Positions 644 through 3,609 of a DNA stretch of 33,365 bases are shown piece by piece. Position 1 is the stretch's first letter, and the number at the start of each line of letters is the position of its first letter. Both the position numbers and the translations under genes were made by a program. Below the pieces are notes generated by a model, which saw nothing but the letters and a program-made list of their open reading frames with translations, had not been told where the DNA came from and ran no database searches. Source of the DNA: an uncultured Bacilli bacterium (GTDB lineage: Bacteria > Bacillota_I > Bacilli_A > RF39 > UBA660); assembly GCA_944332675.1 (NCBI GenBank), contig CALVKJ010000006.1:1-33365 (forward strand), in the 5' to 3' direction.

Positions 644-1891
644 ATGAAAAAAAATGTACATGAAATTGAAATTAAATTAGATAAGGAATGGGTTTCTGCT
701 TTAGATGCAACATTCAAGAAAAAAAATAAAGAAACTAAGATCGATGGTTTCCGTAAAGGTGCTGCTCCAAAAGATGTTTATTTGAAACATTTTGGTATTG
801 AATCTTTATATATGGATGCAGTTGATGCAAGCATTAGTGTTGCATACAAGAAGGTATTAGATGAAAATAAGTTAGTTCCAGTTGTTGAACCAAAAGTTGA
901 TGTAACTGGTATAAGTGATTCTAATGTAATATTTAAGTTTACTATTATTACTAAACCTGAAGTAACTTTAGGAGAATACAAAAACTTAAAAGTTAAAAAA
1001 GAAAAAGTTACTGTTAGTGATGAAGAAATTAACCATGAAATTGATCACTTAAGAGAACATTTAGCGGATGTTATTGTTAAAGAAAATGGTGAAGTAGCGG
1101 AAGGAGATACTGCTGTAATTGACTTTACAGGTTTTGTTGATGGTAAAGAACTTGAAGGTGGTAAAGGTGAAAACTTCCCACTTGAAATAGGAAGTCATTC
1201 ATTTATTCCAGGATTTGAAGAAGGGTTAGTGGGACTTAAAGCTGGAGAAGAGCATACTTTAGAACTTAAATTTCCAGAAAATTATATTGAAGACTTGAAA
1301 GGTAAAGATGTAACATTTAAAGTTAAAGTAAATGAAGTAAAGACTCGCGTTTTACCAGATGTAAATGAAGATTTCTTTAAAGATTTAGGTTATGAAGATA
1401 TTAAGACAGAAGCTGAATTAAAGGCAAAAATTAAAGAAGAAATTAAACATCAAAAAGAACATCAAGCAGATGATGTATTTGTTGATAAATGCTTGGAAGC
1501 TGCTGCTAAAAATATGAAGGTAGATATCAATGAAGAAATCATTGATGATGAGGTTCACAGAATGATCGATCAATATGCACAACAATTACAAATGCAAGGT
1601 ATGAATATTGATGATTATTATAAAATGACTGGAACTAAAGAAGAAGATTTACATAAAATGATGGCTCCAGAAGCTGAAAAGAGAGTAAAATATCGTTATT
1701 TACTTGAAGGAATTGCTGAAGCTGAAGATCTTAAATTCACTGAAGAAGAAATTAATAATAGAGCTGAAGAAATGGCTTCACAATTTGGAGTTTCTAAAGA
1801 AGAATTAATTAAAATCTATGGTTCTATGGATATAATTGAATATGATTTAAAAATGCATAAAGCCTTAGAAATATTAAAAGAAAATAATTAA
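644..1891 (+). CDS. tig: Trigger factor, ribosome-associated chaperone
   Basis: Trigger factor binds the ribosomal exit tunnel via L23 and is the first chaperone met by nascent chains. At 415 residues it has the full three-domain plan: the N-terminal ribosome-binding domain with the signature GFRKGAAP at residues 35-42, an FKBP-type peptidyl-prolyl isomerase domain (about 150-240, with VIDFTGFVDG and PGFEEGLVG), and a helical C-terminal domain. A GTG at 623 extends the frame, but AAGGAAGG at 629-636 lies 7 nt before ATG 644, so ATG 644 is used. Its terminator has been split by the insertion sequence at 1912-3276. Confidence 0.97.
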   Translation: MKKNVHEIEIKLDKEWVSALDATFKKKNKETKIDGFRKGAAPKDVYLKHFGIESLYMDAVDASISVAYKKVLDENKLVPVVEPKVDVTGISDSNVIFKFTIITKPEVTLGEYKNLKVKKEKVTVSDEEINHEIDHLREHLADVIVKENGEVAEGDTAVIDFTGFVDGKELEGGKGENFPLEIGSHSFIPGFEEGLVGLKAGEEHTLELKFPENYIEDLKGKDVTFKVKVNEVKTRVLPDVNEDFFKDLGYEDIKTEAELKAKIKEEIKHQKEHQADDVFVDKCLEAAAKNMKVDINEEIIDDEVHRMIDQYAQQLQMQGMNIDDYYKMTGTKEEDLHKMMAPEAEKRVKYRYLLEGIAEAEDLKFTEEEINNRAEEMASQFGVSKEELIKIYGSMDIIEYDLKMHKALEILKENN

Positions 1892-1898
1892 AATTTTA

Positions 1899-1911
1899 GA
1901 ACACTGTAAAG
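1899..1911 (+). terminator. Left half of the tig terminator, disrupted by an IS
   Basis: AGAACACT (1898-1905) would pair with AGTGTTCT (3283-3290) around a GTAA loop and run into TTTTTT, if the IS and one copy of the 8-bp duplication were removed. The stem is thus rebuilt only in the pre-insertion sequence. Confidence 0.75.
1904..1911 (+). repeat. Target site duplication of the IS, left copy
   Basis: CTGTAAAG directly abuts the TGAACT end of the element and is repeated at 3277-3284. Because the element ends in TG...CA, the identical stretch seen by eye extends to 12 bp (CACTGTAAAGTG). Confidence 0.75.
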
Positions 1912-1936
1912 TGAACTAGTCAACAAAAAGTAGACA
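1912..1936 (+). repeat. IS terminal inverted repeat (orfB-side end)
   Basis: It starts TGAACTAGTC and ends AAAAGTAGACA, matching the reverse complement of 3252-3276 at 20 of 25 positions. Confidence 0.85.
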
Positions 1937-1948
1937 GTTAAATAGAAT

Positions 1949-2770
1949 TTATTTGAACCCTAGTTGAGTTCTATACTCAACCGGAGTTTTATATTGTAAT
2001 GCATAGCTCGGTCTATAATTATTATGATCATATATAATAGCATTTATATAATCGTCTACAGTATCATAATCATCTTGATTGAAATCTAAATACATTTCTT
2101 TCTTTAACCATCCGTTTTTTGATTCAATAATCGGATTATCTGTAGGTGTTGCTATTCTCGACATAGACCTAGTTATGGTATAATCTTTATGTACTTGAGA
2201 AAGTGCTATAGATGAGTATATGATTCCTTGATCGCTGTGCATAATCGTATCTTGGGATTCATATCCTCTTTTTATTTTGCTTTCTAACATACTTTCCAAA
2301 GCTAATTTATGGTTTATTGGATTACTACAATGCAAAAAAGGCTTTACGTTTGAACCAATAATCTCATCATTAAATACATCTACATAATATGTCCAATCAT
2401 ATCTTTGCCTTTTAAACCATATCATTGTTGTATCAGTTACAACTTTTTCTAATGGTTTATTAGTATTCCAATTACCATTTATTAAATTTGGATATTTAAT
2501 TGATTCTTCTCCTGGTTTTTTATATACAGAATAATGTTTTGCTTTACTTCTTATTTTCAACAATTTACATACTTTATGCACTAAATTATCTGATACAATC
2601 CATCCTGTTTCACGTCTAATAATTGCATTTATTCTTCTATATCCATAGCTTTTCTTTTTATTATGTATTTTTATTATTAATTCTCCTAAATCTTTTCTAT
2701 TTAACTCATAATTGTTTAAAATATTTTTTGTTTTTATCCATTTGTAATAACCGCTTCTTGATACTTTCAT
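1949..2770 (-). CDS. IS3-family transposase OrfB (DDE integrase)
   Basis: This is the catalytic half of the IS3 transposase (rve integrase core). It shows an HTH_21-like N-terminus (KSYGYRRI), then the DDE triad: D in VVTDTTMIW, D in MHSDQG, and E in PIIESKNGW with 35 residues between the last two, the D(35)E spacing of this family. The separate ORF starts at MKVSRSGYYKW, but the same frame is open upstream through residues such as EFEIIEDLSNEYSIKSLCAV back to the poly-A slip site at 2887-2893. The functional product is therefore probably an OrfAB fusion made by -1 frameshifting. Confidence 0.93.
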   Translation of the reverse strand: MKVSRSGYYKWIKTKNILNNYELNRKDLGELIIKIHNKKKSYGYRRINAIIRRETGWIVSDNLVHKVCKLLKIRSKAKHYSVYKKPGEESIKYPNLINGNWNTNKPLEKVVTDTTMIWFKRQRYDWTYYVDVFNDEIIGSNVKPFLHCSNPINHKLALESMLESKIKRGYESQDTIMHSDQGIIYSSIALSQVHKDYTITRSMSRIATPTDNPIIESKNGWLKKEMYLDFNQDDYDTVDDYINAIIYDHNNYRPSYALQYKTPVEYRTQLGFK

Positions 2771-2838
2771 AACAGCACAAAGTGATTTTATTGAATACTC
2801 ATTACTTAAGTCTTCTATTATTTCAAATTCCTTTTGTT

Positions 2839-3189
2839 TTATTTCTTGAATACTACAATTGAACCATCTCCTTTCACAAGGTATCCTTTTTTTAGTCTTT
2901 CGTTCTCGATTTTTAACTTCATTATTTCTAATTCAAGTTTTTCAGTTTCATTTAATTCTTTTCTTGAAGAATATTTTGCCAATGGATTTCCAGGTTTTTT
3001 CTTTGGTTTTAGACCATCAATACCATTTTCATTATATTTTTTTACCCATATGCTTAACATTCCATTATTTATTCCTGTCTCTTTTGTTACTTGTGATGAG
3101 CTTTTTTCGAATTCTATTATTGGTTTAATTATTTTATATTTTTCTTCAGCTGACCAATATTTATTTGTTCCACCTTTAGGTCTTCCCAT
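2839..3189 (-). CDS. IS3-family OrfA, HTH DNA-binding subunit
   Basis: A 116-residue protein with the N-terminal HTH_28/transposase_8-type fold (YWSAEEKYKIIKPIIE, SSSQVTKETGINNGMLSIWVKKY), a KKKPGNPLAKYSSRKE linker and a C-terminal leucine-zipper-like helix (ELNETEKLELEIMKLKIENE), the usual OrfA plan. AAGGAGATGAT precedes the ATG. The end of the gene contains A7G, where ribosomes can slip into the orfB frame. OrfA alone typically acts as a regulator of transposition. Confidence 0.9.
   Translation of the reverse strand: MGRPKGGTNKYWSAEEKYKIIKPIIEFEKSSSQVTKETGINNGMLSIWVKKYNENGIDGLKPKKKPGNPLAKYSSRKELNETEKLELEIMKLKIENERLKKGYLVKGDGSIVVFKK
2886..2893 (-). promoter_or_regulatory. Programmed -1 frameshift site (A7G) between orfA and orfB
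   Basis: On the minus strand the orfA codons CTA AAA AAA GGA contain seven As then G. A -1 slip gives a frame with no stop all the way into orfB. An AAAGGAG sequence lies just downstream on the same strand. IS3/IS150 elements are known to use A6G-type slippery runs. Confidence 0.75.
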
Positions 3190-3212
3190 ATTATCATCTC
3201 CTTATATAAATT

Positions 3213-3221
3213 ATTATAGCA
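3213..3221 (-). promoter_or_regulatory. Extended -10 promoter of the IS
   Basis: On the minus strand, TGC-TATAAT lies about 25 bp upstream of the orfA start. No good -35 hexamer is seen, as is common for extended -10 promoters. Confidence 0.55.
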
Positions 3222-3251
3222 ATTAAAAAAGTAGATCACATTCTATTTTTG

Positions 3252-3276
3252 TGTCTACTTTTATTTTATCAGTTCA
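3252..3276 (-). repeat. IS terminal inverted repeat (orfA-side end)
   Basis: The reverse complement begins TGAACTGATA and ends AAAAGTAGACA. It pairs with 1912-1936. Confidence 0.85.
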
Positions 3277-3284
3277 CTGTAAAG
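3277..3284 (+). repeat. Target site duplication of the IS, right copy
   Basis: CTGTAAAG is identical to 1904-1911. The following TGTTCTTTTTT is the right half of the tig terminator. Confidence 0.75.
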
Positions 3285-3369
3285 TGTTCTTTTTTATATC
3301 AAAATTAACCACGTGCGGTTAGGGATAATTCACCACTTATTGTTACACTATAGTAATGAAGTGGTTGGT

Positions 3370-3609
3370 ATGAAAATAAATGATGCTATATCTAAGAAAT
3401 TATTAAAAGTATGTGCTGAGAAAAAAATGTCGGTCAATAGACTGGCGGTGCTTTGTTGTCTTACTCAGAGCACTGTGCAAAATATAATTGATGGCAATTC
3501 AAAAAATCCAAAGATTCTTACATTAGTTAGAATTTGTGATGGCTTAAATATTACATTAAAAGAATTCTTTGACGATGAATTATTTACAAATTTAGATAGA
3601 GAGGATTAA
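3370..3609 (+). CDS. Small XRE-type helix-turn-helix protein
   Basis: The 79-residue protein is essentially a single Cro/C1-type HTH domain: KLLKVCAEKKMSVNRLAVLC, then LTQSTVQNIIDG as the likely turn and recognition helix, then TLVRICDGLNITLKEFF. It has no partner domain. An in-frame GTG at 3313 would add 19 residues that do not resemble the family, so ATG 3370 is preferred, although its ribosome site (GGTTGG) is weak. An inverted repeat (CCACTT...AAGTGG, 3333-3364) lies at the presumed promoter and could be an autoregulatory operator. The neighbour downstream is surface protein P1, in the same direction but behind a terminator-like hairpin. Whether it controls P1 is an inference. Confidence 0.8.
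   Translation: MKINDAISKKLLKVCAEKKMSVNRLAVLCCLTQSTVQNIIDGNSKNPKILTLVRICDGLNITLKEFFDDELFTNLDRED

Follow-up and report, generated by a model that had tools for sequence, protein, structure and literature searches.

The window analysed in this study, a stretch of 33,365 nucleotides from an uncultured Bacilli bacterium, raises the question of why an insertion sequence lies inside the terminator of tig and why the target that it duplicated is so long. The gene, taken from the open reading frame list (644–1891, plus strand; stop codon at 1889–1891), was named tig (trigger factor) in an earlier note on this DNA. Reading of the sequence placed a 1365-bp element, TGAACT...AGTTCA, at 1912–3276, where it splits the tig terminator. 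On the plus strand, the left arm of the terminator, AGAACACT, lies at 1898–1905, the right arm, AGTGTTCT, at 3283–3290 and the T run at 3290–3295, and two copies of CTGTAAAG, an exact repeat according to the script, adjoin the element at 1904–1911 and 3277–3284. When the element and one repeat were removed, the joined flanks folded as AGAACACT-GTAA-AGTGTTCT-TTTTT with an 8-bp stem and a 4-nt loop, in agreement with the stem, GTAA loop and T run that the earlier note had described after excision. The duplicated 8 bp take in the 4-nt loop and the adjacent 2 bp of each arm, and they are therefore centred on the axis of the hairpin. Downstream of the split terminator lies a short helix-turn-helix gene of the Cro/C1 type (3313–3609).

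A tig match was found in 28 of the 30 genomes of the window's genus, and 24 of the 27 other tig loci given to the script were readable beyond the stop codon. One of these, locus L280 of genome G029 (same genus, tig 92% identical), carries GGAACACTGTAAAGTGTTCTTTTTTT with a single CTGTAAAG; its left arm is near-identical to that of the window and intact, its hairpin is unbroken, and the downstream sequence is the same as in the window. Since the hairpin and the sequence that follows it are the same in L280, where nothing interrupts them, the insertion into the tig terminator is real and clean. The sequence, the fold and this empty site together bear out the original description of an IS3-family element in the tig terminator with an 8-bp duplication.

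The element ends in 25-nt imperfect inverted repeats, as seen by end-to-end alignment, one adjoining the orfB end (1912–1936) and the other upstream of orfA (3252–3276), and its transposase is encoded on the minus strand. The boundaries are supported by a 99% identical copy in another genus (L011 in genome G031), which shares the end bases at a different site, where a 10-bp repeat lies in a different terminator. orfA (2839–3189, minus strand) encodes a helix-turn-helix protein with Pfam matches to HTH_28 and HTH_Tnp_1. The orfB frame (1949–2932, minus strand; first ATG at 2770) is open for 327 codons from 2932 to 1952, with its stop at 1949, and encodes a DDE integrase core. The two frames overlap, and a run of seven A on the minus strand at 2887–2893 inside the overlap is a likely -1 frameshift site. 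OrfB scored 172 bits against the IS3 model of NCBIfam (NF033516; cut-off 160) and contains the Pfam domains HTH_21, rve_3, rve and rve_2. The IS3-type integrase-core transposase (NF033516, rve_3 and HTH_21) and the IS3-type TG...CA inverted repeats were both found, and the IS3 identity given earlier holds. The IS3 family is further marked by a -1 frameshift that joins the overlapping orfA and orfB and by a circular intermediate of the copy-out/paste-in kind. Members of the IS3 family characteristically make a short duplication of fixed length (3–5 bp), a trait that is not part of the NCBIfam model. The duplication was 8 bp in the window and 4–16 bp in 70 relatives, longer than is usual for IS3, as had been noticed from the window itself. 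Since the fixed 3–5 bp duplication is absent, the element was filed by its transposase and ends as a variant IS3 subgroup, not as an ordinary member.

The window's own genome contains one full copy and three ends at contig edges, two of which have in common a 14-bp repeat within another terminator-like hairpin. Relatives of OrfB were found in 62 of 386 genomes of the family (E ≤ 1e-20) and in 42 of 395 genomes of the class (E ≤ 1e-40). The 80 named relative loci come mostly from Bacilli metagenome assemblies from animal guts, and they include the complete Tenericutes bacterium MO-XQ and a Mogibacterium assembly. Among the matches listed from plasmid and phage records, relatives reached at most about 40% identity, the closest being on a MO-XQ plasmid. 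Three copies have internal deletions (L049, 514 bp; L337, 594 bp; L050, 764 bp) and keep both ends and the exact repeat in a terminator; they may reflect movement in trans or deletion after insertion.

How constant is the duplication? Both ends were placed by script in 115 distinct places, 91 of which passed the end-score cut. In 54 of these an exact repeat of at least 4 bp was flush with the ends, 13 belonged to a 3-bp group and 24 had no repeat. The 3-bp group consists of twelve elements at 3 bp and L024 at 4 bp, which was assigned by its position on the tree. Three genomes contributed further copies in which both ends and an exact repeat were present, and these enlarged the 54 to a set of 70 variable-length insertions. 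Exact repeats in this set spanned 4–16 bp: 4 bp in 6, 5 bp in 5, 6 bp in 13, 7 bp in 8, 8 bp in 15, 9 bp in 6, 10 bp in 5, 11 bp in 1, 12 bp in 3, 14 bp in 3, 15 bp in 4 and 16 bp in 1. When left and right flanks were swapped among the 70, an exact repeat of at least 4 bp occurred in 134 of 13,803 combinations, so the observed repeats are above chance, and a shorter repeat of at least 3 bp could hide within only three of them. At contig edges, 8–15 bp were common to 7 of 21 left-right pairs within a genome, and at least 6 bp to none of 135 pairs between genomes. The expectation that other copies would sit in terminators with 8-bp repeats was borne out for the terminators; a fixed length of 8 bp was rejected by the range among the 70 insertions.

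The long repeats might be artefacts of assembly or pre-existing repeats, since many of the source sequences are metagenome assemblies. This is scarcely credible, because L280 has a single repeat copy and the pattern recurs in G749 and G476, whose chromosomes are finished, and in MO-XQ, whose chromosome is complete. In G749, 13 of 17 distinct two-ended places had repeats of 4–9 bp and the other four had none flush; eight copies in G476 had repeats of 4, 6, 6, 5, 4, 6 and 5 bp and, in one case, none; and four copies in MO-XQ had 5, 7, 4 and 7 bp. Since copies within one genome differ, duplication length is not a property of the element. No exact flush repeat of at least 3 bp was found in 25 of 108 distinct placed copies (the 24 above and L323). 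Some of these 25 look decayed, such as L116 with one mismatch in six by eye, and some others look recombined. In still others, at L261/L312 and L262/L315 of G749, exact 6- and 8-bp repeats are offset from the element by 1–2 bases on one side; the offset bases are possible leftovers of a circle junction.

The position of the duplication within the hairpin was evaluated by pairing the arms outward from the repeat. Complementarity was 7.74 of 10 at register 0 (n = 54) and fell to 5.1 or less when one arm was slid by 1–4 bases in either direction, and swapped flanks gave 4.97, never exceeding 5.61 in 5000 draws. For the enlarged set of 70, the value was 7.59 as compared to 4.90 for swapped flanks (maximum 5.47). 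In folds of the joined flanks, the hairpin axis coincided exactly with the midpoint of the duplication in 38 of the 54 sites and lay off it in 16, and the mean fold energy was -12.4 versus -5.9 for swapped flanks. Because A tracts pair with T tracts, 474 of 540 pairs of swapped flanks likewise formed a stem across the site; bridging alone thus proves nothing, and only energy and register count. One off-centre case is a contig-edge pair in G005, whose 10-bp repeat begins in the right arm of a terminator. The centred duplication at tig and the usual symmetry among relatives correct the placement of the insertion in the loop and right arm by the earlier note. An alternative is that ordinary IS3 elements insert anywhere and selection keeps only the harmless insertions behind genes. 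The insertions are indeed mostly beside gene ends; selection, however, is blind to a one-base register between duplication and hairpin axis and cannot yield duplications of 4–16 bp, which makes this explanation very improbable.

A centred repeat of variable length implies that some feature of each arm positions the joining made there, and with two equal arms symmetric cuts would follow automatically. These elements are, on the evidence of the sequences, probably an IS3-family group whose target is the inverted repeat of intrinsic terminators, with the joinings set separately in each arm. The sequences show that each end of the element is joined to one strand within one of the hairpin arms, usually 3–7 nt inward from the A or T tract, and that the span between the two joining points is duplicated, giving 4–16 bp that are usually symmetric about the axis. 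The two points of strand transfer would then have no fixed stagger, unlike those of ordinary transposases, and equivalent features of the two arms would set each of them. Less surely, the cue may be the fold that the terminator adopts on extrusion, as a hairpin or cruciform, rather than its letters, with the gaps then presumably filled by host repair.

The relation of the cuts to the tracts bears on what is recognised. The edges of the repeat lay a median of 5 nt from a tract on each side, and this depth was independent of repeat length (rho 0.03). In 39 of 59 sites the two edges differed by at most 1 nt in the distance to their tracts, as compared to a mean of 6.3 and a maximum of 16 in 5000 random placements. 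At least one edge was 3–7 nt from a tract in 57 of the 59, which, together with the off-axis cases, fits separate placement of the joinings. No one ruler accounts for the cuts at every site, whether it is taken from the tract or from the axis, and neither wins: in the 39 symmetric sites, depth from the tract and half-length of the repeat were equally variable (SD 1.39 and 1.44). Information content was 5.76 bits when the sites were aligned on the edge, versus 5.1 bits in the best 16 columns when they were aligned on the axis.

A serious rival of the extruded hairpin is that the transposase recognises two inverted half-sites in normal duplex DNA, each an A tract plus a few bases on its strand, tolerating any spacing and requiring no extrusion. 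The bases most conserved relative to the cut, T at 7–9 nt outward on both sides (0.81–0.93), speak for such half-sites, and the edges at 3–7 nt from a tract fit them as well. Against them, a 4-base tract was missing on one side in 8 of 54 sites, the left arm at tig has no directly adjoining A tract, and the arms pair well beyond the tracts (3.74 versus 1.47 over the first five positions). Moreover, in a background of 138,835 bases from the window and the tig loci, only 33 of 454 A4...T4 intervals had paired inner arms as compared to 26 of 46 target intervals, and such hairpin-like intervals made up 0.45% of the background bases. The spacing of A and T tracts as the whole of the target is weakened by the same rarity of hairpins in the background. 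We consider duplex half-sites rather unlikely. Since the arms pair beyond the tracts and some sites have no tract on one side, an extruded hairpin or cruciform appears the likelier cue. It is quite possible, and we put it forward tentatively, that the DDE transposase of this group works with a stagger set by the target, recognising the extruded terminator hairpin or cruciform and placing each joining separately in its arm.

Gene context was examined in the 63 of the 70 insertions with at least 250 nt of both flanks. In 56 of the 63, an open frame of at least 70 codons had its 3' end no more than 80 nt from the site, and 27 of these 56 sit between two converging open frames. Thirteen of the 63 sites were also inside an open frame of at least 100 codons, a looser mark that includes chance frames. 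Landing just past genes would spare coding sequence and find abundant sites. Arm pairing, folds and these gene-end positions uphold, for the whole group, the earlier proposal that the element targets terminator hairpins, and the 56 sites fit its suggestion that genes are spared. Nearly all sites being terminator-like and close to gene ends, the target might instead be the active terminator, at which RNA polymerase pauses with its RNA hairpin and the DNA bubble sets the cut sites. There was, however, no preference for orientation (the longer tract was on the right in 23, on the left in 24 and tied in 7 of 54 sites), and the cuts are symmetric on both strands, unlike what would be expected for a one-way polymerase; this explanation is improbable.

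A quick, unrooted maximum-likelihood tree of 105 OrfB rows placed all thirteen 3-bp elements on one starred branch of 31 rows that held no variable-length element, so that the two states are separated by one change on the tree. The 3-bp elements also lie at hairpin loops, with no pair inside the repeat in 13 of 13 folds. Seven alignment columns, each conserved to at least 80% in both groups, separate the 3-bp clade; these residues were rejected as the cause of the switch because some variable-length elements have them too. Other copies with duplications of 3–5 bp outside hairpins, the pattern that would speak against hairpin targeting, were not found, the 3-bp sister clade being in hairpins as well.

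An ordinary IS3 control outside hairpins was sought among the IS3 elements of G476 and G749 and in E. coli, and these reach hairpins too. A distant IS3-like element of about 1.7 kb in G476 (L325, L327, L329 and L331) was seen by eye in terminator hairpins in all four copies read, with a 3-bp repeat in three. Twelve copies of a third IS3-like element, with palindromic ends GGAACT...AGTTCC, were read in G749 (L340–L351); several, among them L344, L345, L347 and L349, are in terminators with 3-bp repeats by eye, and others look recombined. Single IS3 elements of Listeria innocua (L353) and Enterococcus faecalis (L355), with about 33% OrfB identity, split terminator hairpins with a 3-bp repeat by eye, and in both the search for inverted repeats extended into the terminator arms. 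An E. coli IS3 element with repeats of 3–4 bp was in strong hairpins at three of five distinct sites, in a weak one at one and in none at one. Its copies at L359, L363 and L364 lie at the axis of hairpins with a common TCCAT...ATGGAC, with 3–4 bp repeats, and its target is perhaps the end of another element. Since these more distant IS3 elements are also in hairpins with repeats of 3–4 bp, hairpin targeting extends beyond the group of the window element, and the hallmark of the group is its variable, centred duplication.

The two active sites of a transposase are thought to be a rigid distance apart on the target, which is why the length of the duplication is taken as a fixed signature of the enzyme. 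Duplications of 4 to 9 bp made by one element in one genome, mostly centred on hairpins, question this view, and a clean comparison is offered by close sister elements that use targets of the same kind and duplicate 3 bp. If a stagger set by the target is true, the duplicated length follows the target, and the rigid 3-bp stagger of the sister clade places a change between coupled and uncoupled strand transfer on one tree. Landing in terminators is a common safe-haven strategy, and if the rule is reproducible, the group offers a natural means of placing DNA directly after genes. The ends of these elements will be misplaced by annotation pipelines that look for a repeat of 3–5 bp.

Several known systems resemble this group in part. 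Group IIC introns likewise insert beside terminator hairpins and spare genes; they are retroelements with RNA-based chemistry, unlike the present DDE group. Searches of open-licence literature gave no report that brings together terminators, a centred duplication of variable length and an IS3 transposase, and this is weak evidence that none exists. IS1272/TnSha1, of the IS1182 family, target hairpins, several of them mapped terminators, with little preference for primary sequence (PMC4923244, PMC5678879). Their transposase reportedly belongs to a different family, and they delete part of the stem, inserting bluntly without duplication (PMC4923244, PMC5678879), whereas the present elements have exact duplications and the joined tig flanks retain the whole L280 hairpin. 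The IS1202 family resembles the present group in its unusually long duplications: one subgroup makes duplications of 16–28 bp, and elements with short and long duplications form separate subgroups (PMC10132070). Its transposase is large (441–457 aa in the Acinetobacter elements) and modelled on TnsB, and the Acinetobacter elements target dif-like sites, with no hairpin target reported in the available part of that source (PMC10132070). A parallel in both family and target is with IS1397, ISKpn1 and ISPsy8, IS3-family elements that insert into palindromes (REP or palindromic-unit targets); ISPsy8 lies on the axis of symmetry of a predicted REP hairpin and makes a duplication fixed at 3 bp (PMC1525189). 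These three use one repeat family, whereas the present group uses unrelated terminators with duplications of 4–16 bp, and ISPsy8 takes one fixed position, in contrast to the variable duplication here (PMC1525189). The combination of one repeat family, a fixed position and 3 bp that marks the REP-targeting kind was not found in the present group, and the window element reads as a variant of the hairpin-targeting IS3 elements in which the strand joinings would be set separately by the two arms of the target.
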